Source of the DNA: Rosistilla carotiformis
GTDB taxonomy: Bacteria; Planctomycetota; Planctomycetia; Pirellulales; Pirellulaceae
DNA: 64,000 nucleotides
Direction: 5' to 3'
Assembly: GCF_007753095.1 (NCBI RefSeq)
Contig: NZ_CP036348.1
Span: 4,875,411 to 4,939,410 of the forward strand
Shown here one piece after another: positions 40,616 to 60,625 of the stretch (position 1 is the stretch's first letter; each line of letters starts with the position of its first letter). The notes beneath the pieces are model-generated. The model was not told the origin of the DNA and did not search any database. It was given only the letters and a program-made list of their open reading frames with translations. The translations under genes and the position numbers were made by a program.

Positions 40616-42316
<1,701 letters not shown>

Positions 42317-42536
42317 TTGCAGAGCCTCCCATCAACGGGGCTTAAAAAAACTAGCCGCGTTCAGATCCGGCAAGTCTTCAGTTGACCTAGCCCAATTTGT
42401 TGCTCAGATTGCTGGAAGCTATACACGTAACATTTGATCCCATCGAGCGTGGCATCGTGTCCCCATGGAGCCTCAGCTTCTTCTCATACGCAACCGATTA
42501 GCTATCTGGTAGACTAGTGGAACCGGAGGACAGTCC

Positions 42537-42752: not shown

Positions 42753-42760
42753 CGGGCGAC

Positions 42761-43048: not shown

Positions 43049-43290
43049 TATCGGTTTCCGCGTTCAATTTCCGCGATTCGTTGTTCAGCCCTTGCAAACA
43101 CTTGATCCGCTGGAACCTCTTGGCCTGCATCGAGGCTCGCAAACCCTTTGGCAACTTCATCACGAAGGGTCTCGCGAGCCTGAAGCAAACGCAATCCTTC
43201 GGTAACCACATCTTGTTCACTCAAAAACCTACGCCCAACGACCATTCGCTGAACGAATGACTCCATGTCTTCTGGAATGCCTGTACTCAT
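43048..43290 (-). CDS. ParD-type antitoxin
   Basis: 80 residues with ribbon-helix-helix start (MSTGIPEDMESFVQRMVVGR, SEQDVVTEGLRLLQARE) and an acidic C-terminal tail. It is first in the pair, as usual, and is expected to bind DNA at its own promoter in the 150-bp gap before the acyl-CoA dehydrogenase end. This pair differs clearly from the one at 36242-36808, so the two are not duplicates. Confidence 0.87.
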   Translation of the reverse strand: MSTGIPEDMESFVQRMVVGRRFLSEQDVVTEGLRLLQARETLRDEVAKGFASLDAGQEVPADQVFARAEQRIAEIERGNR

Positions 43291-43441
43291 CTCGTTGTTC
43301 CTGCTCGATTCCGGATTGCCGTCGGTCGCTCAACATGGTTTTGCCGCTAGGCCGCAGGTTTCACAATGGAAACTCTACCCCAATATACTTTGCTTGCTTC
43401 CCCGGCGTCCACTGACAACTTTATCTCGTGGACGCCCAAGA

Positions 43442-45202
43442 CTAATTCGCTGCACGCTTCAGCAGGTCGTCGTCATTACAACGCATCGCTCGCTGCAATC
43501 CTTCGATGCGGCGATGTGAATCAGCGAAACACCATCGTGCGACGGCATCGTGCGTGCGATCGTTGTTCGCCAGATCGCTGTCCAATCGGCTCAGCGTCGA
43601 CGCCGCGGCGAACAACTCCATCGCCATCCATGCGATTCGTTCCAACACCAACTGGCGTTCGAGCACCTCTTCGCGATGCGTGACCAATGTCTTTTGCACC
43701 GTCGCCCCAAAGCGGCGGATCTGTTTTCCCAGCTGCTTTCCGTACCGTCGCAGTTCCGGCGTTCGCAGCGGGACCGCGGGAGAACAACACCGCAAGCGAA
43801 GCCCATCGGTCGCAAACCGGCACACCAACCCGGCGTCCCGCAGCGGATGTTTCCACGCCGACGCGACCGCTTGCATCTGTAAGCCCGGACCTCGCATCCC
43901 CGTCAACGCGATGAACGACATCAGCACTTCGTTGGCCCCTTCGCCGATTTGATTGATGCGATGGTCGCGGAGCATCCGTTCAAGAGGCAGGTCGGTGAAG
44001 TAGGCAGCGCCGCCGTGAATCTGAAACGCGTCGTTGACGATCGTCCACAACCGCTCGGTGCTCCAGACCTTCAACATCGCGGTCTCCAACATGTAGTCTT
44101 CCAAACCGCGATCGATCAGCCCCGCCGTGACCGTTGTCATCGCTTCCATCGCGTAGGTCCAAGCCGACATCCGCACCAGCTTCTGTTGCACCAGTTCGAA
44201 CTCCGCCAACGAGCGGCCAAACTGCCGTCGACGATGCGCGTGTTCGGTCGCCAGTTGCAGACAAGTCTTCGCCGCTCCGGTACAACAGGCTCCGAACGTG
44301 GTGCGGCCAAAATCGAGCACCGTCAGGGCGACCTTCAATCCCTTGCCGATCGGCCCCAAGATATTTTCACGCGGTACGCGCATGTTGTCGAAGGCCAACC
44401 GAGACGTCGCGGTCCCGCGGATCCCCAGCTTTTCCATCCGCGGTTCGGTCACCTGGAATCCCGGCATATCGGGCGTAACGAGAAACGCGGTGATCGCCGT
44501 CTTGTCGCTCTCGGCGACCGGCGTTCGCGCCATCACCGTCAAGACATCCGCGATCGCTCCATTGGTGATGTATCGTTTCTGCCCATTAAGCACAAAGTGT
44601 TGACCGTCGGCCGTCGGAACCGCCATCGTTTGCACGTTTGCCGCATCGGAGCCGGCGTCGGGTTCGGTCAACGCAAACGCCGCCAGCTTCTTTCCGCTGA
44701 CCAAATCGGGCAACCAACGCCGTCGCTGCGCATCGCTCCCGAACAGCAACAGCCCTCGCATCCCAATCGAATGATGCGCGTTGACGAAGATCGCCGTCGC
44801 ACTACATCGGCTGCCGATCACTTCCAACAATCGGCAATAGGCCATTTGGGAATACCCGCGGCCGCCAAACTCCTCGGGCGCCGTCATCCCCAACAAACCA
44901 AACTGCCCCAATCCATCGATCAATTCACGTGGAATATCCGCTTCGCGATCGATCCGCACCGGATCGAGATTCCGATCGCAGAACGCTTCCAATTCGGCAA
45001 CCGCCGCATCGGTGTCGGCTTTCTGATTGATCGACAGTTGCGGATAAGGAAAGACCCAATCAGCTATCAACCGGCCGGCAAACAATCCCTTGGCCAATCC
45101 GATCGTTTGCGGCAGCGAGCCCAGCAGTTCTTCGGCTTGGCGGATCTGTTCGGCTCGCTGCTGCAGACGCTCCGCCGACGGTTCGGTTACGTGGCTTCCC
45201 AT
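43442..45202 (-). CDS. Acyl-CoA dehydrogenase, long form
   Basis: 586 residues. The ACAD core is complete: FGLLGMTAPEEFGGRGYSQM, FALTEPDAGSDAANVQT (FAD contact), ITNGAIADVLTVMART, and the catalytic Glu in IGEGANEVL. After residue 430 there is a 150-residue helical extension like that of very-long-chain ACADs and ACAD9. It oxidises acyl-CoA to 2-enoyl-CoA with electrons passing to ETF; substrate length is not readable. It overlaps the upstream enoyl-CoA hydratase gene by 16 bases and is the last gene of the minus-strand operon. Confidence 0.9.
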   Translation of the reverse strand: MGSHVTEPSAERLQQRAEQIRQAEELLGSLPQTIGLAKGLFAGRLIADWVFPYPQLSINQKADTDAAVAELEAFCDRNLDPVRIDREADIPRELIDGLGQFGLLGMTAPEEFGGRGYSQMAYCRLLEVIGSRCSATAIFVNAHHSIGMRGLLLFGSDAQRRRWLPDLVSGKKLAAFALTEPDAGSDAANVQTMAVPTADGQHFVLNGQKRYITNGAIADVLTVMARTPVAESDKTAITAFLVTPDMPGFQVTEPRMEKLGIRGTATSRLAFDNMRVPRENILGPIGKGLKVALTVLDFGRTTFGACCTGAAKTCLQLATEHAHRRRQFGRSLAEFELVQQKLVRMSAWTYAMEAMTTVTAGLIDRGLEDYMLETAMLKVWSTERLWTIVNDAFQIHGGAAYFTDLPLERMLRDHRINQIGEGANEVLMSFIALTGMRGPGLQMQAVASAWKHPLRDAGLVCRFATDGLRLRCCSPAVPLRTPELRRYGKQLGKQIRRFGATVQKTLVTHREEVLERQLVLERIAWMAMELFAAASTLSRLDSDLANNDRTHDAVARWCFADSHRRIEGLQRAMRCNDDDLLKRAAN

Positions 45203-45957
45203 CTTGGATCTCGCTTTTCAATAAACGCAGCCAGCCCTTCATGCGCCTCGGTGCTGTGACGAGCGGCCAGATGTTTTTTGATACTGTCTCCCGCATCTTT
45301 TGTTTTAGGAACGGCAAAGGTCTCGTTGATCAACCGCTTCGTCTGGCGAATCGTCTGGGGACCGCCAGCGATCACGGCCTCAGCTGCTGCAACCGCAGCG
45401 GCTTGCAACTCAGCTGCCGCAACAATCCGCTGCACCAGCCCAACCTGCTGCGCTCGCGCGGCGTCGACTGTGTCGCCCAACAGAAACAGTTCCCGCAGAT
45501 CCCCTTCGCGTACTTTGTAACGCAGCACATCGCAGATCAATGCGGGCAACAGACCACGCCGGGCTTCGGGGAATCCAAACTTGGCATCCTCTGCTGCGAT
45601 CACTAGATCACAAGCTGCCATCAGTCCCGCTCCGCCGGCAAACGCGCCGCCTTGAACCGCCGCGATCACGATCAACGATGTCTCCCGCAACTGTCGCAGC
45701 GCCCGCTCGACCGCCGCCGCGGATCGTTCAACCAACGCGAAATCGGCAGCTTCACGCAGATCGAGCCCCGCGGAGAAGACCGGCCCGGCGGCTCGCAAAA
45801 TCACCACGCGATTACCGCGATCCGATTCAATCCGTTGCAACGCGGCAGACAATTGATCCAACAGTTCGATGCTCAGCGCATTGCGGCGACCGGGACGGTT
45901 CAGCACGATCGACTCAATTCCCGGCTGGATCGATTCGACGAGGATCCATTCTTCCAT
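45187..45957 (-). CDS. Enoyl-CoA hydratase/isomerase
   Basis: ATG 45957 (MEEWILVESIQ) is preferred because AAGGTGAG lies seven bases upstream; GTG 45969 would add four residues. 256 residues of the crotonase family: IVLNRPGRRNALS, GPVFSAGLDLREA (first oxyanion NH), VQGGAFAGGAGLMAACDLVIAAE and PEARRGLLPALI. The usual hydratase Glu is kept at the PEARRG position, whereas the first Glu is less clear. By context (AtuA-like protein, carboxylase) a methylglutaconyl-type hydratase is possible, but a general enoyl-CoA hydratase cannot be excluded. Confidence 0.85.
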   Translation of the reverse strand: MEEWILVESIQPGIESIVLNRPGRRNALSIELLDQLSAALQRIESDRGNRVVILRAAGPVFSAGLDLREAADFALVERSAAAVERALRQLRETSLIVIAAVQGGAFAGGAGLMAACDLVIAAEDAKFGFPEARRGLLPALICDVLRYKVREGDLRELFLLGDTVDAARAQQVGLVQRIVAAAELQAAAVAAAEAVIAGGPQTIRQTKRLINETFAVPKTKDAGDSIKKHLAARHSTEAHEGLAAFIEKRDPRWEAT

Positions 45958-45965
45958 CACAGCAC

Positions 45966-47816
45966 TCACCTTTCGTCAGCTTCTATTGTACGCCCACGTT
46001 CGGCAGGCAAGGGCATTTCCAACAGCAACTGCCCCAGTGTTTTACCTTGTGCGTCGCTGCGCAACCGGTTCTGCAAGATACCACGGATGACAAAATTCAG
46101 TGCGCCGAGATTCTTCAGTTCATAGCGCTCGACCGATTGGACACCTAGCGGCTGCAAGAACGCTGCCACGCGATCCGCCGTCAACCAAGCTTCCAGAAAT
46201 CCCCAATCGTCATCGGATCGCAACAAGACTCCGATATTGGCCGATGTCCCTTTATCGCCGCTGCGTGCAAACGCGATCGATCCCAAACGCGAAGCGATTG
46301 TTGCGGGTGCGTCTATGCCGGTTGTCATTTCCGATTCCGATTCACCTTCGCAATACTGACTGGCGATTCCACCTTGCACCAAAAGCGTCTTCTCCTGAGT
46401 TTCGGAAGCACTCGGCGACGGGTCGTCCGTCGAGGTGTCATCGGTTTGGATCGCGTCGACACGTGGCGTGACGCGATCTCGATCGATCAAACAGGGCCAA
46501 TACCGGATCACCGGTCGCACGCGTGGACGTCCCTCGGCGTAGCCGGTGGTCCCTTGTGGCCCGGCGGTAATCAAGGGCATCAATTCGCGAGCGAACCGCT
46601 CAGCCGCGGCTTGCGTTTCCGATTCGATTGCGATCCGCAGAACGACTTCACCAAAGACATCCGGATCGCCATCGCTGTCTTGGCATAAAACGCTTCCAGC
46701 ACAAGCACCGCTCCCCAGACATTCGATCACGCTGTCGCGAATTTCGAATCCCGCTTCGCTCACGCGTTGCAAAACCATCTCGCCGCATCGCTTCGCTTTG
46801 CGGACCGCATCGCGCCCCACGATAACCAGTGTCCCCGCCGCGCGAAAGCCATCGCGTAGAGTTGCACTGACCTTATATTGTTCGGGTCGCGGATGACCAA
46901 CCGCACCGGAGACTCGCACCCGATTGGATCCCAAATCTTCGACCCGCAGTCCATCGAAGCGGACACAAACACCGGGACTTCGGTAGTCGCGGGGATCGCC
47001 GATTTCGTAGACCAATTGCTCGCGAACCGTCGTCGCCGTCACGCGTCCTCCCGTGCCGTGCGGTTTGCTGACGATACAGTTTCCCGAGTCGGCGACCTCG
47101 ACGATCGGGAATCCGATGTTGGCGGGGTCGGGAACATTTAGCCAATCGGTGCTGATCCCACCGGTCACTTGAGTTCCGCATTCGATCAGATGGCCCGCCA
47201 CCGTCGCGCCGGCCAAGCGATCCAGTTCGCTCTCTTGCCAGCCGAAATGATGCAGACAAGCCGCCACGACCAGCGATGGGTCAGCGACGCGGCCCGTGAT
47301 CACGATCTGGGCTCCATCGGCCAGCGCTTGGGCGATCGGACCGGCTCCCAGATACGCGTTGGCCGTCACGATCCGATCGACGTTGTCAGCTAGTGATTCG
47401 CCGTCGTCCAAGTTTTTGAACTCCTCCGCGGCAGCGGACGACCGGAGTTCGTCCAAGACGTCGTCGCCGCTGACGATCCCGATCCTTAGCGACGGACATC
47501 CCTCCTGTTCCAGCGCCCTACGACACGCATCGGCACAGGCAGCTGGATTTAGTCCGCCCGCATTGGCGAGCACTCGGCAGCGGCCTCCCGCCGCCCAATA
47601 AGGAGCCAACGATCGGATGACATCGACAAAATCGCGAGCGTAGCCCAGTTCTGGATTCAGTTGTCGCTGCATCGCCAGGATCGACATTGAGACCTCGGCC
47701 AGATAGTCCAGCGTCAGGTAATCCAGCTCGGGTTCCAGATTCAACATCTCCGCCGCCGCTGCGCTGCGATCACCCCAGAACGCTTGTGCATTTCCGATTC
47801 GAATCGAACGCGACAT
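45966..47816 (-). CDS. AtuA-like protein (DUF1446)
   Basis: 616 residues. The N-terminal 450 residues match the AtuA/DUF1446 family (SIRIGNAQAFWGDRSAA, VLANAGGLNPAACADACR, GADIVITGRVADPSLV-like segment, GGISTDWLNVPDP). The last 110 residues form the AtuA-associated C-terminal domain (IAFARSGDKGTSANIGVL). AtuA is required for acyclic terpene (citronellol/geraniol) utilisation in Pseudomonas, although its reaction is unknown; relatives sit in leucine and branched-acid loci. Here it precedes hydratase and dehydrogenase genes in one operon, its stop lying within a few bases of the next start. Confidence 0.87.
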   Translation of the reverse strand: MSRSIRIGNAQAFWGDRSAAAAEMLNLEPELDYLTLDYLAEVSMSILAMQRQLNPELGYARDFVDVIRSLAPYWAAGGRCRVLANAGGLNPAACADACRRALEQEGCPSLRIGIVSGDDVLDELRSSAAAEEFKNLDDGESLADNVDRIVTANAYLGAGPIAQALADGAQIVITGRVADPSLVVAACLHHFGWQESELDRLAGATVAGHLIECGTQVTGGISTDWLNVPDPANIGFPIVEVADSGNCIVSKPHGTGGRVTATTVREQLVYEIGDPRDYRSPGVCVRFDGLRVEDLGSNRVRVSGAVGHPRPEQYKVSATLRDGFRAAGTLVIVGRDAVRKAKRCGEMVLQRVSEAGFEIRDSVIECLGSGACAGSVLCQDSDGDPDVFGEVVLRIAIESETQAAAERFARELMPLITAGPQGTTGYAEGRPRVRPVIRYWPCLIDRDRVTPRVDAIQTDDTSTDDPSPSASETQEKTLLVQGGIASQYCEGESESEMTTGIDAPATIASRLGSIAFARSGDKGTSANIGVLLRSDDDWGFLEAWLTADRVAAFLQPLGVQSVERYELKNLGALNFVIRGILQNRLRSDAQGKTLGQLLLEMPLPAERGRTIEADER

Positions 47817-47847
47817 GATTGGTTATGGCCTCGTGGTTGTCTTCCGG

Positions 47848-48925
47848 TTTGCCTCTCGTCCCGGGGCCTGACAGCCCCGGCAGATCTTGTGTCGGCCTAT
47901 CGGCCTGGTTCTTAAACAACCTCCTTCGCATCTCTCTTCAGCCCGGTAGGGCGGCAAATCTATTGCCGGTGGTGTAAGCCACCGGGAAATGGCAGTGCCC
48001 TATGCGGAAAAGCCCGGAGGGCGGCATAGGGATTGAACCTTATGTCGGCCTATCGGTCTTGTCGATCTGTTGTTCTTTCTTTCCGGGGCCTCACGGCCCC
48101 GGCAGTTGTTGTGTCGGCCTACCGTCCTGGTGTGCATTTGACTGATTTCCCCACTCTCACCTGAGCCCGATAGGGCGGCACATCCAATGCCGGTGGTGTA
48201 AGCCACCGGGAACTGGCAGTGCCCTATGGCCCAAAGCCCGGAGGGCGGCATAGGGATCGAACCTTGTGTCGGCTTATCGGCCTTGTCGATCTGTTGTTCT
48301 TTCTTTCCGGGGCCTCACGGCCTCGGCAGTTGTTGTGTCGGCCTACCGGCCTGGTGTGCAGTTGACTGATTTCTCCACTCTCACCTGAGCCCGTCAGGGC
48401 GACACATCTAATGCCGGTGGTGTAAGCCACCGGGAACTGGCAGTGCCCTATGCGGCAAAGCCCGGAGGGCGGCATAGGGATCGAACCATGTGTCGGCCTA
48501 TCGGCCTTGTCGATCTGTTGTTCTTTCTTTCCGGGGCCTTACGACCCCGGCAGTTGTTGTGTCGGCCTATCGGCCTGGCGTGCAGTTGACTGATTTCCCC
48601 ACTCTCACCTGAGCCCGATAGGGCGGCACATCCAATGCCGGTGGTGTAAGCCACCGGGAACTGGCAGTGCCCTATGCGGCAAAGCCCGGAGGGCGGCATA
48701 GGGATCGAACCATGTGTCGGCCTATCGGCCTTGTCGATCTGTTGCTCTTTCTTTCCGGGGCCTCACGGCCCCGGCAGGTCTTGTGTCGGCCTATCGGCCT
48801 GGTTTGCAAACAACCTCCTTTGCACCTCTCCTCAGCCCGATAGGGCGGCAAATCTAATGCCGGTGGTGTAAGCCACCGGGAACCGGCACAGCCATAAACG
48901 ATTAAGCCCGGAGGGCGACACACTT
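47848..48925 (-). repeat. 224-bp tandem repeat array (about five units)
   Basis: The landmark AGCCCGGAGGGCGGCATAGGG begins units at 48011, 48235, 48459 and 48683, exactly 224 bp apart, with a degenerate unit to the left (from about 47848) and a truncated one after 48905. Each unit has three palindromes: CCGGTGG/CCACCGG with a 6-base loop (for example 48190-48209), CCGGGGCC/GGCCCCGG, and a CGGCCTATCGGCC-type box. The four equal-sized 83-codon minus-strand frames found here are artefacts of the repeat. The array separates the AtuA-like operon from the carboxyltransferase gene. Confidence 0.9.
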
Positions 48926-48953
48926 CTCGATGAGTCCAACAACATTCCCCCCC

Positions 48954-50549
48954 CTAAACCTGCAACACTCCCGTTCTGAAATTTTGTTGATCCGTTGTCG
49001 GCAACAGATCGAGCGCCGTCTGCAACCAGAGTCGCGTTTCGTGCGGCGGGATGATCGCGTCGACCCAACCGCGCGCTGCACCGAAGCGGATGTCGGTCTG
49101 TTCTTGATATCGCTGGCGGATCGAATCTCGCAGCGCGTCGACTTCCTCGTCGGCCAGTGAGCGACCGTTGCGTTGGGCTTCGCGCAACTGCAATTGCAGC
49201 AACGTATCGGCCGCTTGATTGCCTCCCATCACGGCGTACTTTGCCGAGGGCCAGGCGAGGATCAGCGCGGGGTCGTACGCTTTTCCGCACATCGCATAGT
49301 GCCCCGCACCAAACGATCCGCCGATGATCACTGTCAACTTCGGAACGATCGAATTACTGATCACATTGACCAACTTGGCTCCGGCGCGGATGATCCCCGC
49401 TTGCTCGGCCTGTTTGCCAACCATAAAGCCCTGCACGTCCTGAACGAAGACGATCGGAACTCGCATCTGATTGCAGTCCATCACAAACCGAGCGGCTTTG
49501 TCGGCGGCGTCGGGATAGATCACGCCGCCGACTTGAAGCTCACCGTCGGCCGCCCGGCATCGCCGTTTTTGGTTGGCGACGATTCCGATTGGATGCCCGC
49601 CGATCCGAGCGAACACCGCCACAATCGTCTGCCCAAATTCCGCTTTGTATTCTTGCAACGAATCACCATCGACGATGCATCGCAACACGTCGCGGACGTC
49701 GTACTCCTGCCGCCCGTCCGCCGAAACGATGTCGTAAACCGAATCGCAATCTCGCTCGGTCCCCACGTCACAAATGTCGCTCGCTCGCGACCGATCGATC
49801 GGCAACAGATCGACCAGCGACCGCAAGCGGTTCAAGCAAGCGGGATCGTCCGGTTCGTGAAAGTCGACGGTGCCGCTGATCGCTGCGTGCATCGACGCCC
49901 CGCCAAGCTGTTCGGGATCGGCGGTTTGGCCGATCGCCGCTTTCACAAGCGCCGGTCCCGCCAGACACATCTGGCTGCCATCGGTCATCAGCAGCTTGTC
50001 GCACAAAACTGGAAGGTATGCTCCGCCGGCGACACAGTTTCCCATCACCGCCGCGTATTGGATCACTCCCGCGGCCGAGAGGACTGCGTTGTTGCGGAAG
50101 ATCCGTCCGAAGTCGTCTTCGTCGGGAAAGATCTCGTCCTGCAGTGGCAAAAAGACGCCGGCTGAATCGACCAGATAGATCACCGGAATACGAAACTGAT
50201 AGGCGATCTTCTGTGCTCGCAACAGCTTCTTGACCGATTGTGGAAACATCGCTCCCGCTTTGACCGTTGCGTCATTGGCGGCGATCAGACAACCGCGACC
50301 TTGAACAAAACCAATCCCCGTGACGATTCCCGCTGCCGGAACGCCGCCCCATTCTTGGTACATCCCATTCGCCGCCCAGAGCCCCAGTTCCAAGAAGGGT
50401 CGCCCGGGATCCAACAACAATTCCAACCGCTGACGCACCGGCAATCGGCCGTGCCGCAACTGTCGCTGCTGCCCCTCGGCACCGCCTCCTTCACGGAGCG
50501 TCAACTCTTGGCAAGTGATTCGTTCGGTGAGCTCTCTCAAGCTGGTCAT
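48954..50549 (-). CDS. Acyl-CoA carboxylase carboxyltransferase (beta) subunit
   Basis: ATG 50549 (MTSLRELTERITCQE) gives 531 residues, the normal length; an open frame upstream runs into the neighbouring gene. The crotonase-type CT halves are complete: GIVTGIGFVQGRGCLIAAND and YLVDSAGVFLPLQDEIFPDE in the first, IIGGSFGAGHYAMCGKAYDP and WPSAKYAVMGGNQAADTLL in the second. These are closest to methylcrotonyl- and geranyl-CoA carboxylases (MccB, AtuC). The biotin carboxylase/carrier alpha subunit is not in this window, so it must be supplied from elsewhere. It follows the MeaB-PrpD fusion by 10 bases. Confidence 0.88.
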   Translation of the reverse strand: MTSLRELTERITCQELTLREGGGAEGQQRQLRHGRLPVRQRLELLLDPGRPFLELGLWAANGMYQEWGGVPAAGIVTGIGFVQGRGCLIAANDATVKAGAMFPQSVKKLLRAQKIAYQFRIPVIYLVDSAGVFLPLQDEIFPDEDDFGRIFRNNAVLSAAGVIQYAAVMGNCVAGGAYLPVLCDKLLMTDGSQMCLAGPALVKAAIGQTADPEQLGGASMHAAISGTVDFHEPDDPACLNRLRSLVDLLPIDRSRASDICDVGTERDCDSVYDIVSADGRQEYDVRDVLRCIVDGDSLQEYKAEFGQTIVAVFARIGGHPIGIVANQKRRCRAADGELQVGGVIYPDAADKAARFVMDCNQMRVPIVFVQDVQGFMVGKQAEQAGIIRAGAKLVNVISNSIVPKLTVIIGGSFGAGHYAMCGKAYDPALILAWPSAKYAVMGGNQAADTLLQLQLREAQRNGRSLADEEVDALRDSIRQRYQEQTDIRFGAARGWVDAIIPPHETRLWLQTALDLLPTTDQQNFRTGVLQV

Positions 50550-50559
50550 CCGAGGTCTC

Positions 50560-52794
50560 TCATGAGGTTTCCACAAGATGATCGATGAATCGATCGATCG
50601 ACATTGCGTCCAATCCGTCATCGTCAAAACAGCGCTGCAATAACTCAACTCGCTGGGGACTGAAGCGCGTTGCCACGTTGCTGATGAACTTTTCCCGCAG
50701 CAGTGGTTTCGCTTCGTCGCGTCGACGTCGATGCCCCAACGGATATTCGACAACAACGCGCTGGCTTGCCGAACCATCGTCATAAAACAACTGGACCGCA
50801 TTGGCGATCGAACGTTTGTCGGGATCCAGATAGTCGCGTGAGTACCGCCGGTCTTCGACGACTTCCATCAGCGATCGCAGCCGATCGATCCGCGGATCGG
50901 AGGCGGCATCGGCTTCATAATCCTCCGCCGCAAGACGTCCTTTCAGCAGCGCAACCGCCACGATGTACTGCAAACAATGATCGCGATCGGCCGGATTGTG
51001 CAGCGTTCCCGTCTTGTCGATGATCCGGATCGCCGATTCCTGCGTCTCGATCCGAATCCGTTGGATGGAATCCAGTCGCGATCCGGCTTGTGGCGACAAT
51101 GCGATGGCCGCTTCGGCAGCCGTCTGCGCATGGAACTCGGCAGGAAACGCGACTTTAAACAACACGTTCTCGATCACGTAACATCCCAGCGGTCGCGGCA
51201 ACGCGATCGGTTGGCCGGCGAACAACACGTCTTCAAATCCCCACTGCGGAGTCGACAATGCGGTGGCATAGCCTCGCTCGCCAGCGACGCTCCAAAGCGC
51301 TAACTGCACGCCACGCCGCGTCGCATCCCCCGCGGCCCAACTCTTTCGCGAACCGGTGTTGGGGGCGTGGCGGTAGCATCGCAGGGCGCCGCCGTCGACC
51401 CAAGCGTTGCTGACCGCATCGATCACCTGCTGCCGCGTGCCTCCCAACAGTTGAGTCGCCACGGCGGAGGTCGCGATCCGGACCAACAGCACATGATCCA
51501 AGCCGACTCGATTGAAAGAGTTTTCCAGCGCCAAGATCCCCTGGATTTCATACGCCTTGATCGCAGCGGACAAGACGTCGCGGACCGTCAGCGGATTACC
51601 TTGCCGAGCTTGATAGTCCGCTACCGCCAAGATGCCGCCAAAATTGTCGGACGGATGGCCCCATTCGGCTGCCAGCCAGGTGTCGTTGAAATCGAGCCAG
51701 CGGATCATGCATCCGACGTTCCAAGCCGCCGCGACCGGATCCAAACGATAAGCCGTGCCCGGCACTCGCGCTCCGTTTTCCAATGTTGCTCCGGGAACGA
51801 CGGGCCCCAACAACCGGGTGCACTGCGGATGGTTGAGTGCTAACAATCCGCAACCGAGGCTATCGAACAGGCACAGCCTGGCGGTGGCCCAGGCTTCTTC
51901 GCTAAAGTTCGCCGGGGCGCAGACATAATCGGCGATTTGTTCCAACAACGGATCGGTCTGCGTTGTATCGCCCGCAGCGATCGCACGCGGTTTCGCAGCG
52001 TGTGCGTTCATTGAGCGAACGTCGCGGCGCGATCGCAACGCGGTGTCGATCGCTGCGGCAAGCGTTTCGATCCCTGTCCGATCCGCAACCGACGTCTGCA
52101 CGATCGCTACCGATGGTGAATCGGAACTCGTCAATTGTTGTCGCAGATCGGCGACTGTCGCATCGGCTCCAGGCAGGTCCGATTTATTGACGACCACCAC
52201 GTCAGCGACTTCCAAGAGGCCGGCTTTCTCCCATTGCAAATCGTCGCCGGTCTGCGGTTGCAGCGTCAGGACGACGACGTCGACCAGATCGCGGATTGCA
52301 ACATCCCCTTGCCCGACGCCAACGGTCTCCACGAAGATCCGATCGAATCCGAAGGCTTTCATGATTCGCAGTGATAGCGCTACCGACGAGGCCACGCCTT
52401 GCTGCCCCGACATCGTGGAAAGACTGCGAACGAACAACCGCTTGGTCGCCGATCCGGTCGCGATCCGGCAACGGTCTCCCAACACCGCCCCGCCGCTGAT
52501 CGGACTCTCCGGATCGCAAGCCAACACGCCGACCGTGGCTCCACGATCGACATAATCGTTGACCAACAATCCCAGCAGACTGCTCTTGCCCACACCGCCG
52601 CTGCCGGTCAACGCGATCACCTCCGCATCGCGCGGCGACGCGCTCGCATCCTGCCCGCGTATCGCCGCCGCAATGGTCGATCGATGCTCCTGTTTACAGG
52701 CCAAAGACAACAACCTCGCCAGTGCCACTCGATCGCCGCGGCCCAATCGTTGGGCAAGCGATGGAATCTGGTTGCGAGAGCTATCGTGCGGCAT
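50560..52794 (-). CDS. Fusion: MeaB/ArgK GTPase + PrpD 2-methylcitrate dehydratase
   Basis: A single 744-codon frame encodes two enzymes. Residues 1-265 are a MeaB/ArgK G3E GTPase: Walker A GSGGVGKS at 64-71, [14 protein letters not shown] near 156-170, and NKSD at 203-206. Residues 283-744 are a MmgE/PrpD domain: DFNDT at 368-372, HPSDN at 380-384, [20 protein letters not shown] near 430 and [14 protein letters not shown] near 490. MeaB guards B12 acyl-CoA mutases from inactivation; PrpD dehydrates 2-methylcitrate. The join, near residues 265-283, has no stop or frameshift. Flanking genes encode the mutase, PrpB and PrpC, so both halves have their partners here. I know of no described example of this fusion. 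Confidence 0.88.
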
Positions 52795-52803
52795 GGGAGA
52801 ATC

Positions 52804-53196
52804 TCAGCTGTTGCAAAACTCGACGATCGAAGGAAGGGGCGTCCCGGGGCCGAAACAGCCGCGAACTCCGAGTTCGATCAGTTTCGCCTGGTCGGCTGGC
52901 GGAATGATACCGCCGACAATCACGCCGATATGGGAGAGTTCTCGTTGGCGGAGCGCTTCCAAAAGCGCGGGAACCAGAGACATATGAGCACCATTGAGAA
53001 TGCTGACGCCCAGCCAGTCGACGTCTTCGTCAGCCGCGGCTTGGACGACGGCATCGATCGATTGCCACAGACCGCTGTAGATTACGTGGAACCCCGCGTC
53101 GCGCAAGCCTCGGGCGACGACCTTGATCCCGCGGTCGTGACCGTCGAGTCCAACTTTGGCTAACAAAATTCGTTGAGCAAGTGGAGGTCGGTTCAT
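52804..53196 (-). CDS. B12-binding small subunit of acyl-CoA mutase
   Basis: ATG 53196 (MNRPPLAQRILLAKVG) lies 1 base after the large-subunit stop and gives 130 residues, the size of stand-alone IcmB/HcmB-type subunits. The cobalamin motif DGHDRG (His20) supplies the lower axial ligand, and SILNGAHMSLVP and GGIIPPADQAKL complete the Rossmann-like B12 domain. It acts with the large subunit in adenosylcobalamin-dependent rearrangement of acyl-CoAs. A longer upstream frame would overlap the large subunit and is rejected. Confidence 0.92.
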   Translation of the reverse strand: MNRPPLAQRILLAKVGLDGHDRGIKVVARGLRDAGFHVIYSGLWQSIDAVVQAAADEDVDWLGVSILNGAHMSLVPALLEALRQRELSHIGVIVGGIIPPADQAKLIELGVRGCFGPGTPLPSIVEFCNS

Positions 53197-53197
53197 A

Positions 53198-54805
53198 TCA
53201 CCATGCCGCCGAAGGTCGGAAGCGGCCATAGACATCGGCCAAGGCGTCGACACATTCCTGCACCGTCGCCCGGTCGTCGGCCGCTTGCAGCAGACTGGAC
53301 ATCACGTTGTCACGATGTTCGGCAGCGTGCCGCAGCGCGTCGAGCGAACGCGTCACATCGGCACCGCTGCGGTTTTGTTTGACGGCGAGTAGGGCATCGA
53401 TTTGATCGGGTTCGGTCGCCGGGTCGATCTCCATCACCGCGATCGGATTGCGATCGGGCTGTTGAAACGCATTGACGCCAACGACCAGCTTCTCGCTGCG
53501 ATCGACAGCGGTTTGATATACGAAAGCGGCATCGGCGATCTGGCGACGGAAGTAGCCATTCTCCACGGCGGCGATCATGCCGCCCTGATCGGCGATCGCC
53601 CGAAAGCAAGCGTCTGCGTCCTGCTTCATCTTGTGCGTGAAAGACTCCACAAAATAGCTGCCGCCCAACGGATCGACAGTATTGGTAACGCCGGTCTCGT
53701 GCGCCAGCACCTGCTGAGTTCGCAGTGCCAACGTGACCGCTTGTTCGCTGGGCAAGGCAAACGTTTCGTCCATCGAATTGGTATGCAACGACTGACAGCC
53801 GCCAAGCACTGCGGCCATCGCTTGATAGGCGACTCGCACAACATTCACTTCCGGCTGCGCCGCTTGCAGCGAACAACCGGCCGTCTGCGCATGGAACCGC
53901 AGCTTCCACGAAGCTTCCGATTTCGCACCATAATCATCGCGGATCATCTCTGCCCACAACGCTCGCGCCGCCCGATACTTGGCGACCTCTTCAAACAAAT
54001 CGTTGTGCGCGTTGAAGAAGAAGCTGAGCCGCGGCGCGAACGCATCGATACTGAGCCCCCGTTCGAGACACTTCTGTACATAATGCTGCCCATCGGCCAG
54101 CGTAAACGCCAGCTCCTGCTGCGCCGTCGAACCGGCTTCGCGGATGTGGTATCCGCTGATCGATACCGGATTCCACTGAGGAACATAGCGGGTGCAAAAC
54201 GCGATCAAATCGACCACCAGCCGAACCGAAGGCTCCGGCGGAAAGACAAATTCGTTCTGCGCATGGAACTCTTTTAAGATGTCGTTCTGAATCGTGCCTC
54301 TCAGCTGACGCCAATCGCAGCCGCGCTGCCGAGCCGCTGCCAGATAGAAGGCCATCACTACGATCGCCGGAGCGTTGATCGTCATCGAGACGGAAACCTT
54401 CTGCAGATCGACGCCATCGAAAAGTGCCAAGATATCGTCGATAGTGTCGACGGCGACGCCCAAGCGGCCGACTTCGCCAACCGATCGCGGGTCGTCGCTG
54501 TCCAACCCCATCAGCGTTGGCAGATCAAAGGCGGTGCTGAGGCCTGTCTGCCCCTGATCCAAGAGAAAGCGGAAGCGGCGATTTGTATCGCGAGGTCGCC
54601 CAAAGCCGGCGAACTGACGGATCGTCCACAACCGCCCGCAATACATCGATTCGTGGATGCCGCGGGTGTAGGGGAACTGTCCAGGCCGACCAATCTCCCC
54701 CTGCGCCGAAAAGTCCGCCAGGTCGGCGGGACTGTACAACGGCTTTATCGGAACGCCGCTGAGCGATGTTCGGAAAGCGGGTGATTCGGCGGCAACGAAA
54801 TTCAT
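53198..54805 (-). CDS. Acyl-CoA mutase large subunit, isobutyryl-CoA-mutase type
   Basis: ATG 54805 has GAGGGAG upstream and gives 535 residues (family: about 540-560 when the B12 domain is separate). The TIM-barrel substrate region reads SMYCGRLWTIRQFAGFG and TIQNDILKEFHAQNEF. In methylmalonyl-CoA mutase the residues here are Tyr89 and Arg207; in this protein they are Phe65 and Gln183, with the same 118-residue spacing. That is the Phe/Gln pair of isobutyryl-CoA mutases. Predicted reaction: n-butyryl-CoA/isobutyryl-CoA interconversion, or a near relative such as isovaleryl/pivalyl-CoA, using AdoCbl. It is first of the operon containing the small subunit, MeaB-PrpD and a carboxyltransferase. 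Confidence 0.88.
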   Translation of the reverse strand: MNFVAAESPAFRTSLSGVPIKPLYSPADLADFSAQGEIGRPGQFPYTRGIHESMYCGRLWTIRQFAGFGRPRDTNRRFRFLLDQGQTGLSTAFDLPTLMGLDSDDPRSVGEVGRLGVAVDTIDDILALFDGVDLQKVSVSMTINAPAIVVMAFYLAAARQRGCDWRQLRGTIQNDILKEFHAQNEFVFPPEPSVRLVVDLIAFCTRYVPQWNPVSISGYHIREAGSTAQQELAFTLADGQHYVQKCLERGLSIDAFAPRLSFFFNAHNDLFEEVAKYRAARALWAEMIRDDYGAKSEASWKLRFHAQTAGCSLQAAQPEVNVVRVAYQAMAAVLGGCQSLHTNSMDETFALPSEQAVTLALRTQQVLAHETGVTNTVDPLGGSYFVESFTHKMKQDADACFRAIADQGGMIAAVENGYFRRQIADAAFVYQTAVDRSEKLVVGVNAFQQPDRNPIAVMEIDPATEPDQIDALLAVKQNRSGADVTRSLDALRHAAEHRDNVMSSLLQAADDRATVQECVDALADVYGRFRPSAAW

Positions 54806-55032
54806 CGCGACACTCCCTCGAGATGGGTACAATGCATTATATGCACCAACGCCCGCAACAAATCAAAAGCGCAATCGCCTCGCTCCGCACCTGCCGTGCG
54901 GTTTCGCCACCAATGGCGGCAGAGTTTAGGTAATTTCGGCAACTCCCAACGGAATGCTAATCCGGGGCCAGTCGAATCGGACACTCTGTTGCGAATCGAT
55001 CGTTGGGCATTTTTCGTTTCTCAGAAACAACC
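54806..55032. promoter_or_regulatory. Divergent control region, mutase operon / prpBC
   Basis: The 227-bp gap holds both promoters. For the minus strand, TATAAT (complement of 54835-54840) with a TTGTTG-like -35 15 bases further up stands 30 bases before the mutase ATG. It overlaps a small palindrome TGCAT-TAT-ATGCA at 54833-54845 that could be an operator. No clear promoter for prpB was picked out. No regulator gene is beside it. Confidence 0.4.
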
Positions 55033-55896
55033 ATGTCGTCTTCGCAAACTGTCACCGCCGGGGAACGTTTGTGGTCCGCCGTCGACCGCGAGCGACCGTT
55101 GCAGATCGCGGGAGCTGTCAACGCGATGTCGGCCCTGATCGCCGAACAGGCCGGGTTTCGAGCTCTCTATCTGTCGGGCTCCGGTGTCGCCAGCGCGTCG
55201 CACGGGTTGCCCGATTTAGGCGTGACGACGATGCACGATGTATTAGAGGATGCGCGACGCATCACTTCGGCGACCGAATTGCCGCTGTTGGTCGATGCCG
55301 ATACGGGTTGGGGCGATTCACGGATGATCGGCCGCGCGACACGTGAACTGATCCGCTCTGGTGCAGCCGGGCTGCACTTGGAAGATCAGATCGCGGAGAA
55401 ACGCTGCGGCCATCGCCCCGGTAAACGACTGGTTCCGGCAATCGAGATGCAAGATCGATTGAAAGCCGCATTGGACAGCCGAACCGATGACAGGTTCGCG
55501 ATCATGGCTCGAACGGATGCTGTCGACGTCGAAGGGGTCGATGCGGCGATCGATCGAGCGGCGCGATACGTCGAGACCGGGGCGGAGATGATTTTTGCGG
55601 AAGCTGTTGCGTCGCTGGACGATTACAAACGCTTCACCGCCGCGTTCGGAGTGCCCGTGTTGGCGAACATCACCGAATTCGGAAAGACGCCGCTGTTCAC
55701 GGTCGAGCAATTGAGATCTGCCGGAGTGCGGTTGATATTGTATCCGTTGACAGCGTTTCGCGCGATGAATGCTGCCGCGCGGAACGCTTACGAAACTTTA
55801 CGCCGCGACGGAACGCAGGCGGAATTGATCGCCGCGATGCAAACTCGCGAGGAATTGTACGACGTGTTGGATTATCACGCCCAAGAACCGGATTAA
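55033..55896 (+). CDS. prpB: 2-Methylisocitrate lyase (PrpB)
   Basis: ATG 55033 (MSSSQTVTAGERLWSAVD) gives 287 residues, normal for PrpB. The signature KRCGHR at 123-128 holds the catalytic Cys125, and VDADTGWGD carries the metal-binding Asp residues. It splits 2-methylisocitrate into pyruvate and succinate, the last step of the methylcitrate cycle. An in-frame start at 55003 is possible but less like the family. It is 36 bp before the prpC-type gene and divergent from the mutase operon. Confidence 0.92.
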   Translation: MSSSQTVTAGERLWSAVDRERPLQIAGAVNAMSALIAEQAGFRALYLSGSGVASASHGLPDLGVTTMHDVLEDARRITSATELPLLVDADTGWGDSRMIGRATRELIRSGAAGLHLEDQIAEKRCGHRPGKRLVPAIEMQDRLKAALDSRTDDRFAIMARTDAVDVEGVDAAIDRAARYVETGAEMIFAEAVASLDDYKRFTAAFGVPVLANITEFGKTPLFTVEQLRSAGVRLILYPLTAFRAMNAAARNAYETLRRDGTQAELIAAMQTREELYDVLDYHAQEPD

Positions 55897-55932
55897 GGAT
55901 AACGCAACGCAAATCAACCGTAGAGGACTGTC

Positions 55933-57054
55933 ATGATTCTCACGAATTCAACGGGCTTGGCAGGCGTGGTCGCTGGCGAGACGGCGATCAGCACCGTGGG
56001 CAAGCAAGGCGTCGGTCTAACCTACCGCGGTTACACCATCGAAGACTTGGCGGAGCATTCGACGTTTGAAGAGGTGGCGTGCCTGCTGATACACGGCGAA
56101 CTGCCAACTCCCGCCGAGCGCGATCAATTCCTCGCCAAACGGATCGCCCAGCAACGGCTATCGGACGAGATGATGTCGTTTTTGGAACAGTTGCCCGACA
56201 CCTCGCATCCAATGGACGTGTTGCGATCGGGGACGTCGCTGCTAGGTTGTTGGGAACCAGAACATTCGATCGATCAACAACAACGCATCGCCGCGCGGTT
56301 GCTGGCTGTCTTCCCATCGATGATCTGTTATTGGTACCGGTTCGTAAACGATCGGTTCCGGATCGAAATTGAATCGGAACAAACAACCGTGGCAGGGCAC
56401 TTTCTGCAGCTATTGCACAGCGGTGCGCCATCGGAAGTCGATCGCCGGGCGTTGGATGTGGCGTTGATCCTGTACGCCGAACATGAATTCAACGCGTCGA
56501 CCTTCGCCGCTCGCGTGACAGCTTCGACCGGATCGGACCTCTATTCGGCAATCTGCACCGGAATCGGCACGCTGCGTGGTCCGCTGCACGGGGGTGCCAA
56601 CGAAGCGTCGATGAAGTTGATCTCTAACTTTACCGATCCCGAACAAGCGGAGCAGGGAGTTCTACGCAAGCTCGCCCGGCGCGAGAAGATCATGGGATTT
56701 GGACACCGCGTTTACAAGTCGACCGATCCGAGGTCGGAGATCATGAAACGCTGGGCACTGACGTTGTGCAAACAGACACGTCAGTTGAAAACCTATGCGG
56801 TTGCTGAACGGATCGAAACGGTGATGCAACGCGAGAAGGGATTGTTCCCCAACCTCGACTTCTACAGCGCGGTGGCATTCCATTGTTTGGGAATCCCCAC
56901 CGCGCTGTTCACTCCGCTATTCGTGATGGCTCGAACCGCGGGCTGGTCTGCTCATGTCTTTGAACAACGATCCAACAACCGCTTGATTCGCCCGACCGCA
57001 AACTACATCGGCCCCAGCCAACGCCCGCTTGTGCGGCCACATCAACGTACGTGA
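55933..57054 (+). CDS. prpC: 2-Methylcitrate synthase / citrate synthase family (PrpC)
   Basis: 373 residues, typical of short type methylcitrate synthases. Catalytic residues are His219 (GPLHGGANE), His258 (GFGHRVYK) and Asp309 (NLDFYSA). It should condense propionyl-CoA with oxaloacetate; some members also accept acetyl-CoA, so citrate synthase activity is possible. Together with PrpB upstream and the PrpD half of the fusion gene, all three core enzymes of the methylcitrate cycle lie within 7 kb. Confidence 0.9.
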   Translation: MILTNSTGLAGVVAGETAISTVGKQGVGLTYRGYTIEDLAEHSTFEEVACLLIHGELPTPAERDQFLAKRIAQQRLSDEMMSFLEQLPDTSHPMDVLRSGTSLLGCWEPEHSIDQQQRIAARLLAVFPSMICYWYRFVNDRFRIEIESEQTTVAGHFLQLLHSGAPSEVDRRALDVALILYAEHEFNASTFAARVTASTGSDLYSAICTGIGTLRGPLHGGANEASMKLISNFTDPEQAEQGVLRKLARREKIMGFGHRVYKSTDPRSEIMKRWALTLCKQTRQLKTYAVAERIETVMQREKGLFPNLDFYSAVAFHCLGIPTALFTPLFVMARTAGWSAHVFEQRSNNRLIRPTANYIGPSQRPLVRPHQRT

Positions 57055-57111
57055 GCCCTTCGCGGAAACATCATCCCGGTGGTTTGTCAAACTTTGATTT
57101 TAGTACTGATG

Positions 57112-57177
57112 GTAGTGGACGAGGTCACGAGTCCGCATAATCTCTGGCGCGAAAGGACTCGTGACCTCGCCCACTAC
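57112..57177. repeat. 23-bp inverted repeat with 20-bp loop
   Basis: The left arm 57112-57134 (begins GTAGTGGACGAGGTC) and the right arm 57155-57177 are complementary over 23 bases with one mismatch. It stands 58 bp after prpC and 26 bp before the convergent gene's stop. It could act as a bidirectional terminator or be a small mobile palindrome; there is no T-tract, so a classical Rho-independent terminator is less likely. Confidence 0.75.
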
Positions 57178-57202
57178 CCTAAAGTTTATTGTTGACGCTG
57201 CA

Positions 57203-58177
57203 CTAGAAGCAGAACTCGATCGATCCGTTGAAGACATAGGCGCTGTCGGTCGTCAGCGTCGTGGGCCCACCAAGAAACTCGAGCGGGTGGTTGATCTGGG
57301 CCATGTCGTCGAAGTACTTCACTCCAATCATGGGTCGAACCAACCAGCCGCCGATGCAGATATCGGTTCGCATCGCCAGTTCGGCCGTCGTCGTCGTCTG
57401 TTTCAGCCCCGTGCTCAGGTCCCCTTGCGCGGCCAACCCACCACCGTTGAAATGGAGCGTGCTGGTACCGAAGTACTCGGCGTCCATCTCATAGATACCG
57501 TAGCGGGCGTCGAAGTAGCAGATCTGGCCAAAGATCGACTGTCGCAGCGTGCCGCGAAACTCACCGCCGAGGTAGTTGGTGTCGAGATCTTCGATGGATT
57601 GTCCGCGGCGGCCGTCGCCAAACCGTGCATCGGTCTGGAAATCTTGATCGAACAACATCCAACTGAAACCACAACCGATTGTGATGTCGCCCAGGCCGAT
57701 CCAATCGAGACTGAAGCGGTCGCGCAAACCTACGTATTTGTGCAGATGAAAGACATCGCTGTCCACATCCATCGTCAACGATTCGCCGCCGACTGTCGCC
57801 ATTCGCCCTCTCCCGTCGAGAGTCACGAATCCGTAGCTGGCAGTCGGATCGTTGTCGGTGAACGTTCCGCTCGACCCCATCGATCCGATTCCGGCAATCT
57901 GCAGGTCGGATTCAAACAGCGTTCGCGTGGGGGCAAAGTGGTAGAATCCACCAAGGGTCAATTGGGCTCCGACATCGGTCTGATCGTCGGAGAACAGATC
58001 GGTACTCGATCCGCCGTCCGAAATCGTACCGGCTTTATATTCGGGTAAAACAGGCACCCAAGCACCTGCCGAAAGGAACAAATCTGCCTGCGCACTAGCT
58101 TCTCGATCGATCGCAGCGGTTGCCAAAGCGATCGCCAATGAGAATGCCAAACGCGCGGAGGAGTGCTTTTTATGCAC
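57203..58177 (-). CDS. Predicted outer-membrane beta-barrel protein, unknown
   Basis: 324 residues with a signal peptide (LAFSLAIALATAAI, cleavage near ASA-QA). The mature part alternates short amphipathic strands with Gly/Asp turns (LTLGGFYHFAPTRTLFESDL, GGEFRGTLRQSIFGQICYFDAR, TTAELAMRTDICIGGWLVRP) and ends in a C-terminal Phe (NGSIEFCF), the usual beta-barrel end signal. Family not recognised. The opposite strand has a 295-codon open frame, which is its shadow. Confidence 0.7.
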   Translation of the reverse strand: MHKKHSSARLAFSLAIALATAAIDREASAQADLFLSAGAWVPVLPEYKAGTISDGGSSTDLFSDDQTDVGAQLTLGGFYHFAPTRTLFESDLQIAGIGSMGSSGTFTDNDPTASYGFVTLDGRGRMATVGGESLTMDVDSDVFHLHKYVGLRDRFSLDWIGLGDITIGCGFSWMLFDQDFQTDARFGDGRRGQSIEDLDTNYLGGEFRGTLRQSIFGQICYFDARYGIYEMDAEYFGTSTLHFNGGGLAAQGDLSTGLKQTTTTAELAMRTDICIGGWLVRPMIGVKYFDDMAQINHPLEFLGGPTTLTTDSAYVFNGSIEFCF

Positions 58178-58483
58178 GGGGAGGACCTCCTAGTTTAGGA
58201 AATAGAGTCGTGTAAGAAGTTCTTTCGACCCCGGCTTCAACGCGACGCTAGCATTTCCAAACGGAGGCCGTGGAGATTCTCGAACCGCGGGCCGCTTGAA
58301 CGCTCCAGCCAAACCTAAGCGGCTTGGCAAAGCAGACACGTTGGATTGATTCTGCCAGCGGCAATGTCTAGGCTGAGCGGCCGATGCGACTGGAATCTCA
58401 ATGATCTTGGTTCTAGGCTTAACCTATGTAATTTGTTCCCAATCCGTTCGCGCCCCGGTCGCGGACTTTGCTGGAGATATCCG
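58178..58483. promoter_or_regulatory. 306-bp divergent gap before M3 oligopeptidase gene
   Basis: This gap lies between the start of the beta-barrel gene and that of the oligopeptidase, so it holds the promoters of both. A GGAG ribosome site sits 8-11 bases before ATG 58484. No other feature was identified. Confidence 0.4.
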
Positions 58484-60625
58484 ATGCGTGGTTTTCATAA
58501 ATTTCAACGCCCGCTCTTGATCGCCGCCGCTTGCGTCGCCGCGATCCAGAGCGTCAATGCAGTAGACAACGGAGTCGAACAACCGATGAGTGCAATGCTG
58601 GAACCATGGACTGGCCCCTTTGGCGGCGTCCCCCCTTGGAACTTGGTCCGCCAAGAAGAGTTTGTCGCCGCCTTCGATCAAGCGATCGCTCAGGCGCAAC
58701 AAGAGATCGATACAATCGCTAACAATCCCGAACCGCCAACCTTCGAGAACACAATCGTAGCGCTCGAAAAAGCCGGTCGCACGTTGGAACGGCTCGATAC
58801 GCTCTTCAGCGTTCACTCGTCGAATCTGAATCTCGGTCCGGTCCCCGATATCGAACGGGCGGTCTCGCCCAAGCTGGCCGAACATGCGGACAAGATCACG
58901 CAAAACGAAAAGTTGTTCGCGAGGATCGAAGCCGTTTTCCAAAGCGATGAGAAATCGAATCTGACGCTCGCCCAACAACGTCTGCTGGACGACCGCTACC
59001 GAAACTTTGTTCGCAAAGGGGCCAAGCTGGAACCCGAAGCGAAGAAGAAGCTGTCGCAGATCAACATGCGGCTGGCCAGCCTGTTCACCGACTTCAGCCA
59101 AAACGTTTTGCACGATGAACAGAGCTACGTCACCTGGATCGACGACGAAGCTCGCTTGACGGGTCTTCCCGATTCGGTCGTCGCCGCGATGGCGTCGGCC
59201 GCTGAAGAACGTGGCAAGCCGGGGCAATGGGCCGTCACCAACACGCGCTCCTCGATGGATCCGGTTTTGACCTACGCCGACGACCGTCCGCTGCGCGAAG
59301 AGGTGTGGCGCACCTATTACAACCGCGGCGACAACGGCGACGCTCACGACAACAACACGCTGATCGCCGAGATCCTGAAGTTGCGTCGGACGCGAGCGAA
59401 CATGCTGGGCTATCCAACGCACGCTCACTGGCGGTTGGAAGGAACGATGGCCAAGACTCCCGAAGCGACGATGGATCTGATGATGCAGGTCTGGCCCAAG
59501 GCGGTCGCTCGGGTTCAAGAAGAAGTTGCCGACATGCAGCAGATCGCTGACCAATCGGGAGCGAAGATCAAGATCCAGCCGTGGGACTATCGCTATTACG
59601 CCGAGAAGGTGCGGAAGGCGAAATACGATCTCGATTTCAACGAAGTCAAACCGTACCTGCAGTTGGAAAAGCTGCGTGAAGGAATGATGTGGGCCGCGGG
59701 CGAGCTGTTTGGTCTGCAGTTCAAAGAGACGACCGATCTGCCCGTCTTCCATCCCGACGTCCGCGTCTGGGAAGTGAACGATGCCGATGGCAACCATGTC
59801 GGTCTTTGGTACTTCGACCCGTACGCTCGCGAAGGCAAGCGGAGCGGAGCGTGGATGAGTGCCTATCGGGCTCAGGAAAACATCGACAAGCCGATCACGA
59901 CGATCGTTTCGAACAACTCCAATTTTGTCAAAGGTGCCGCCGGCGAACCGGTTCTGATTTCCTGGGATGATGCGGTCACGCTGTTCCACGAATTTGGACA
60001 CGCCCTGCACGGCTTGTGCAGCAAAGTCCAATACCCATCGCAATCGGGAACCTCCGTCGCCCGCGATTATGTCGAATTCCCCAGCCAATTGTTGGAACAC
60101 TGGCTCGACACGCCTGAGGTGCTCAGCCGCTACTGCGTCCATTGTCAGACCGGCCAACCGATGCCTCAGGAACTGCCCGACAAGATCGCCAACGCGGCGA
60201 CCTTCAATCAAGGCTTTGGAACCGTTGAATACCTTGCCAGCGCGTTCATCGATATGAAGCTGCACACGTCGGATCGCGACGAGATCGATCCCGATGCGTT
60301 CGAGCGCGAAACGCTGAAGGCGATCGGGATGCCGGAGGAGTTGCCGATGCGACACCGCACGCCCCACTTCCAGCACATCTTCGCCAGCGACAGCTATTCG
60401 GCCGGCTACTACAGCTATCTGTGGAGCGACGCGTTGACTGCGGATGCGGCGGAGGTGTTCGACGAAGCGGGCAGCTACTACGACCCTGCGACAGCGAAAC
60501 GGTTGCACGATTCGGTGATGAGCGTCGGCGACACGATCGATCCGGCCGACGGATTCCGGGCGTTCCGCGGACGCGATGTCGACACCAGCGCCCTGCTCCG
60601 CAAACGTGGCTTCCCGACGAAGTAG
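58484..60625 (+). CDS. M3 family metallo-oligopeptidase (Dcp-like), exported
   Basis: ATG 58484 has GGAGA upstream and gives a signal peptide (RPLLIAAACVAAIQSVNA) on a 713-residue protein. The zinc motif HEFGH at 502-506 is followed by the downstream Glu (ARDYVEFPSQLLEHW). The overall length and the C-terminal DSYSAGYYSYLWSDALTADA match peptidyl-dipeptidase Dcp / oligopeptidase A. It trims short peptides; the leader places it in the periplasm. A 742-codon frame on the opposite strand is a shadow of this gene. Confidence 0.93.
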   Translation: MRGFHKFQRPLLIAAACVAAIQSVNAVDNGVEQPMSAMLEPWTGPFGGVPPWNLVRQEEFVAAFDQAIAQAQQEIDTIANNPEPPTFENTIVALEKAGRTLERLDTLFSVHSSNLNLGPVPDIERAVSPKLAEHADKITQNEKLFARIEAVFQSDEKSNLTLAQQRLLDDRYRNFVRKGAKLEPEAKKKLSQINMRLASLFTDFSQNVLHDEQSYVTWIDDEARLTGLPDSVVAAMASAAEERGKPGQWAVTNTRSSMDPVLTYADDRPLREEVWRTYYNRGDNGDAHDNNTLIAEILKLRRTRANMLGYPTHAHWRLEGTMAKTPEATMDLMMQVWPKAVARVQEEVADMQQIADQSGAKIKIQPWDYRYYAEKVRKAKYDLDFNEVKPYLQLEKLREGMMWAAGELFGLQFKETTDLPVFHPDVRVWEVNDADGNHVGLWYFDPYAREGKRSGAWMSAYRAQENIDKPITTIVSNNSNFVKGAAGEPVLISWDDAVTLFHEFGHALHGLCSKVQYPSQSGTSVARDYVEFPSQLLEHWLDTPEVLSRYCVHCQTGQPMPQELPDKIANAATFNQGFGTVEYLASAFIDMKLHTSDRDEIDPDAFERETLKAIGMPEELPMRHRTPHFQHIFASDSYSAGYYSYLWSDALTADAAEVFDEAGSYYDPATAKRLHDSVMSVGDTIDPADGFRAFRGRDVDTSALLRKRGFPTK

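Follow-up and report, generated by a model that had tools for sequence, protein, structure and literature searches.

In-frame fusion of a MeaB-type GTPase domain to 2-methylcitrate dehydratase in two genera of budding planctomycetes

In Rosistilla carotiformis a single gene encodes a MeaB-type GTPase domain joined in frame to a PrpD domain, the 2-methylcitrate dehydratase of the methylcitrate cycle. It lies on a 64,000-nucleotide stretch of contig NZ_CP036348.1, which was analysed as a whole and is referred to here as the window. Comparison of sequences makes it probable that the gene is a genuine fusion, formed from neighbouring genes of an operon, whose product is a single bifunctional protein of predicted function. 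The arrangement is a new domain architecture built from known families; in the genomes searched it is limited to a small group of budding bacteria, where the join is genuine and has been conserved. The use of two G domains by AdoCbl chaperones is a topic of current interest, and an arm-less G domain carried on another, dimeric enzyme constitutes a natural experiment on the two-G-domain requirement. The genera concerned include cultured strains (PMC7716947).

Results

The minus strand of the window, translated from 52794 to 50560, gives one frame of 744 amino acids with no internal stop, in which Pfam recognises MeaB (residues 48-254; 1.2e-51), MmgE_PrpD_N (285-530; 4.4e-85) and MmgE_PrpD_C (550-722; 4.1e-55). 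The initial annotation of this DNA had reported a single uninterrupted GTPase-PrpD frame at these coordinates; the coordinates are correct, the frame is both uninterrupted and conserved, and the strand is added here. Three parts can be distinguished along the minus strand: a MeaB/IcmF-type G domain (52033..52794, residues 1-254), a linker (51958..52032, residues 255-279) and the PrpD domain (50560..51957, residues 280-744 and the stop codon). The G half has an intact P-loop (Walker A, G64-S71), switch II region (156-162), switch III (D184, Q187 and K190) and NKxD motif (N203-K204-S205-D206), with Walker A and NKSD standing where they had first been placed, at 64-71 and 203-206. It aligns with the MeaB chains 8dpb and 2qm7 over residues 8-207 and scores 175.7 bits with Pfam MeaB (cut-off 23.1); the fusion scores below the cut-offs of the NCBIfam MeaB equivalogs (for TIGR00750, 181.7 against 240.75 bits). 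The PrpD half passes the cut-offs of two NCBIfam PrpD equivalogs (765.2 against 575 bits and 731.2 against 458 bits) and aligns over almost the whole length of PrpD chains of known structure (residues 4-464 of 469), in agreement with its earlier description as complete. The whole genome holds one match for either half of the fusion, the C-terminal half of which is the only PrpD found. Since the best-scoring equivalog is that of 2-methylcitrate dehydratase, automatic naming would probably hide the genome's only MeaB-type match.

The whole frame is present in three of three genomes examined from the window's genus, at 92-94% identity. In a second genus the join occurs in three of three genomes and is carried by a whole frame in two of them (G014 and G179, 64-66% identity), so that the intact frame is found in five genomes of two genera, the other four being 64-94% identical to that of the window. 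In the remaining genome of the second genus, that of Rhodopirellula maiorica SM1 (G180), the gene is divided between two contigs, the break lying within the G domain; on the second of them the frame runs without a stop from the G-domain end across the linker and into PrpD. The TGA noted in G014 is where its 750-aa ORF stops and coincides with the final codon of the match. A frameshift or stop near residue 270 had been named as the finding that would undo the fusion; the relatives have no break at the join in any of the six genomes, and a frameshift or assembly artefact is thereby ruled out. Since the whole frame recurs in five genomes of two genera, the fusion is not a product of sequencing.

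In the first genus both halves are under purifying selection, with dN/dS values of 0.13-0.24 (G domain) and 0.11-0.16 (PrpD); the value for the 25-codon linker is 0.94-1.36, or about 1. In comparisons between the two genera, substitution at synonymous sites has reached or almost reached saturation, and the linker varies in length without any loss of frame. Such an unconstrained linker is what would be expected if the two operon neighbours had simply run together once in an ancestor and the join had been tolerated with no advantage, an account that also fits the restriction to two genera and the commonness of unfused relatives. The retention of the frame in 6/6 genomes despite the state of the synonymous sites speaks against it, and we regard a neutral join as a serious possibility towards which we do not lean. 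The linker might alternatively be the point at which one frame yields two proteins, by internal initiation or by cleavage. It does contain ATG codons, at codon 262 in G000 and G001, at codons 257 and 274 in G179 and at codon 281 in G014; however, no internal start is conserved among the fused genomes, G002 having no ATG at 262, and the Shine-Dalgarno-like matches before these codons reach at most 3/6 at the scored spacings, except for 5/6 before codon 274 of G179 (at codon 257 of the same genome an AGGAG abuts the ATG, outside the scored spacings). Two separate products are accordingly held to be quite improbable.

Matches running through both halves in one frame were found in 4 of 60 relatives, in 5 of 241 genomes of the family together with the split R. 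maiorica gene, and in 4 of 396, 3 of 397 and 1 of 392 genomes sampled from the order, the class and the phylum. These sets overlap, and because few of the best candidates were scored per genome (at most two for the order, class and phylum, at most four for the family), a very divergent fusion could be missed. Across the genomes searched, all such matches are confined to the two genera; a widespread, known fusion was considered and is not seen. The homologue search proposed in the initial annotation has thus been run, and it returns the same domain order in six genomes, the split R. maiorica gene among them. None of the best 80 of 91 G-domain relatives in the named genomes has PrpD following in the frame of the G domain, the R. 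maiorica locus (L097) being cut by the contig end. On plasmids, 171 records matched and none had one place covering 80% of the query; viral contigs held no relative of PrpD. Titles and opening lines of abstracts among the matches listed in an open-access literature search, with subscription papers mostly outside its scope, describe no MeaB-type GTPase joined to PrpD, and a term search of one gene-fusion survey gave no mention of methylcitrate or MeaB. As far as these sources extend, the earlier remark that no description was known still stands.

The fusion gene is embedded in a tightly packed minus-strand cluster. Upstream of it lie the large, substrate-binding subunit of an acyl-CoA mutase (53198..54832; 544 aa as called) and, 1 nt further on, the small B12-binding subunit (52804..53196, with the ATG at 53196 chosen as its inferred start), whose stop is 9 nt before the ATG of the fusion. 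Downstream, the inferred ATG of a carboxyltransferase gene (48954..50549, start at 50549) follows the fusion stop by 10 nt, and farther along the same strand are genes for an AtuA-family protein (45966..47816), an enoyl-CoA hydratase family protein (45187..45969, assigned to family only) and an acyl-CoA dehydrogenase family protein (43442..45202), the NCBIfam matches of the last two all being below cut-off. The fused GTPase gene therefore adjoins AdoCbl-dependent acyl-CoA mutase genes, the setting by which MeaB/ArgK proteins are recognised; the chain is not an IcmF, in which mutase, B12 domain and G domain form one chain, since the mutase and the B12 domain are here separate genes. On the plus strand, divergent from the mutase genes, are PrpB, methylisocitrate lyase (55003..55896), and PrpC, 2-methylcitrate synthase / citrate synthase II (55933..57054). 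A divergent PrpB is clustered with the fusion and the mutase genes in 6/6 fused genomes, and PrpC stands beside PrpB in four of the six (the window, L021, L022 and L057); the parts of G014 and R. maiorica that were read show no PrpC. Positions 40000-60000 of the window gave no cobalamin riboswitch match in Rfam at gathering scores.

Several other features of the window were recorded. Between the AtuA and carboxyltransferase genes, at 47861-48917, there is a tandem array of 4.7 copies of a 224-base unit, and a hairpin repeat inside this unit has 24 exact copies in the genome, mostly clustered. At 27526-30005 are two overlapping ketosynthase-type genes, one with a weak and one with a strong match to FabF-type families, which resemble a ketosynthase / chain-length-factor pair. 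Two adjacent, very long frames on the minus strand (1500 and 1801 aa) occupy 9837-19741.

The residues of the mutase bear on the client of the G domain. At the positions of Tyr89 and Arg207 of methylmalonyl-CoA mutase (MCM), the large subunit has Phe74 and Gln192. In PDB alignments the methylmalonyl-CoA mutases 6oxc, 8gju and 2xij are Tyr/Arg, and 2-hydroxyisobutyryl-CoA mutase 4r3u, the nearest solved chain by score (505 bits), is Ile/Gln. The split is not clean, for chain 5req, named methylmalonyl-CoA mutase, reads Phe/Arg; we take this chain to be an engineered Tyr89Phe variant. Among 58 mutase rows readable at both positions, counted with duplicates left in and eight partial rows dropped, 43 are Phe/Gln, 13 Tyr/Arg and 2 other, and an IcmF-like frame of G024 (L067) is also Phe/Gln. 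The Phe/Gln pair is presumably the mark of isobutyryl-CoA mutase, and by its residues we infer the co-encoded mutase to be of the isobutyryl-CoA type and not a methylmalonyl-CoA mutase. The genome contains one acyl-CoA mutase that could be found and one PF01923-type adenosyltransferase; no methylmalonyl-CoA epimerase in it scored over the cut-off (23 against 114.95 bits), which 8 of 14 control genomes pass.

G-domain pairing and the missing extension

Neither MeaB nor IcmF reaches its active state unless two G domains pair, switch III then acting in trans on the nucleotide of the partner, and the C-terminal extension of MeaB takes part in dimerisation (PMC9974510, PMC10481361). MeaB is a dimer at all times, and IcmF attains its active state by oligomerising through the G domains (PMC10481361). 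Seven residues of MeaB work across the G-protein dimer or, in trans, on the nucleotide: D92, R108, E154, Q160, D182, Q185 and K188 (PMC9974510). They align at a constant offset of 2 to D94, R110, E156, Q162, D184, Q187 and K190 of the fusion, and switch I D105 aligns in the same way to D107. All eight are invariant in nine proteins, five fused and four unfused. The extension itself is absent, its space being filled by the linker and PrpD in the five complete fusions. What had been called a complete G3E GTPase is therefore complete as a G domain and lacks the C-terminal extension of MeaB.

These observations raise the hypothesis that the PrpD dimer serves as a scaffold which, by keeping two G domains close to each other, replaces the missing extension and lets switch III reach the nucleotide of the partner. 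The requirement for two G domains in trans favours it, as does the loss of the extension with the trans-acting residues kept. Of 74 unfused GTPases, 60 have 45 or more residues after the G domain, as against none of nine B12-domain::GTPase fusions, a contrast that also points this way, yet these counts ignore kinship, the limit of 45 was chosen after the lengths had been seen, and L095, which belongs to the nine, has 40. Moreover, the unfused sister L071 has 3 residues after its G domain and is likewise without the extension, so that such a protein is viable unfused; the loss would then, most simply, predate the fusion. Because the linker is unconserved, no fixed geometry appears to be maintained. 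Taken together, the scaffold seems unlikely. An AlphaFold2 model built from 12 sequences (mean pLDDT 55.7, pTM 0.42) is confident for the G domain, most ten-residue blocks between 11 and 260 being above 65, and poor for the linker and the PrpD half, residues 262-553 being almost all below 50; the latter half was poorly modelled because the alignment held one other PrpD, and the arrangement of the two halves is not placed.

Origin of the fusion

The gene orders of unfused relatives indicate how the two genes could have met. In L071 the order is mutase, B12 subunit, GTPase, carboxyltransferase and AtuA, with no PrpD. In 12 of 38 unfused PrpD loci, PrpD is followed directly by a carboxyltransferase gene, with PrpB divergent in five, collinear in two and not visible in five; the count leaves out the cut R. 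maiorica contig (13 of 39 with it), and at two loci there is too little room to decide. A GTPase and a PrpD each adjoining a carboxyltransferase gene could therefore become neighbours before fusing. In the midpoint-rooted G-domain tree (65 rows) the six fused rows form one group (98/89) with the unfused L071 as sister (100/100), and in the midpoint-rooted PrpD tree (43 rows) they are grouped with weak support (88/62), near G356 and genus g10. The trees are compatible with one origin of the fusion, weakly so in the case of PrpD, and the simplest account is the fusion of genes that were already operon neighbours. The co-linear GTPase and PrpD genes of L084 were considered as one operon and rejected, because three opposite-strand ORFs lie between them.

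Discussion

The most likely reading is that both domains work independently and are loosely tethered. The N-terminal G domain would load and repair AdoCbl in the mutase encoded just upstream, and the C-terminal half would be a working 2-methylcitrate dehydratase of the methylcitrate cycle. Since the linker behaves as a loose tether, each half probably works alone, the 1:1 ratio and the co-localisation being by-products. PrpD-family enzymes are dimers, and a PrpD dimer would bring two G domains onto one particle, possibly assisting the pairing of G domains on which the chaperone family depends.

The substrates of the two halves have also to be considered. It had been proposed that the fusion couples upkeep of the mutase to methylcitrate flux and so balances two fates of short acyl-CoAs, taken here as those of propionyl-CoA. 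The clustering of the fusion and the mutase genes with PrpB, and in most of the genomes with PrpC, is in keeping with the proposal; on the other side, the mutase is Phe/Gln rather than Tyr/Arg, it is the only mutase found, and no epimerase is over the cut-off, so that two balanced routes for propionyl-CoA are unsupported and the model has very little to recommend it. The substrates of IcmF are isobutyryl- and n-butyryl-CoA and pivalyl- and isovaleryl-CoA (PMC10481361). Given the Phe/Gln mutase and the missing epimerase match, it appears more likely that the substrates served by the two halves of the fusion differ, being isobutyryl- (or isovaleryl-) CoA for the first and propionyl-CoA for the second, and propionyl-CoA disposal in this genome may rest on the methylcitrate cycle alone. 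Valine is degraded through isobutyryl-CoA to propionyl-CoA, and it is possible that both halves share a role in the breakdown of branched-chain acyl-CoAs. A bolder conjecture, which we put forward as improbable, is that the PrpD dimer is a recruited oligomerisation platform of a B12 metallochaperone, standing in for its dimerisation arm, and that it may assemble isobutyryl-CoA mutase, chaperone and methylcitrate cycle for that breakdown.

Comparison with known systems

The fusion resembles MeaB and MMAA, the standalone chaperones of methylmalonyl-CoA mutase, in its G domain, in the residues that signal across the dimer and in the position of its gene beside an AdoCbl mutase. It differs from them in having no C-terminal dimerisation extension, in being joined to PrpD, in scoring below the NCBIfam MeaB cut-offs, and in its client, which by sequence would not be methylmalonyl-CoA mutase. 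With IcmF (B12 domain, G domain, mutase) it shares a G domain in frame with another enzyme and a client that is apparently of the same Phe/Gln class, yet its partner is an enzyme of another pathway and not the client mutase, and the mutase and B12 domain are separate proteins. A B12-binding domain in frame with a MeaB-type G domain, which reproduces one half of the IcmF arrangement, also occurs in several planctomycetes (L062, L061/L086, L013/L090, L088, L089, L091, L095, L115 and L160). These fusions (for example L062, L061/L086, L088, L089 and L115) have the same G-domain family, a mutase gene nearby in most cases and a missing or shortened extension, whereas their partner is the B12-binding subunit, attached at the opposite side, and they contain no PrpD. 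Finally, the C-terminal half is a whole enzyme like other PrpD proteins (TIGR02330; 5mux and 1szq), about 55-71% identical to unfused planctomycete PrpD proteins of full length, to which the fusion adds an N-terminal GTPase.
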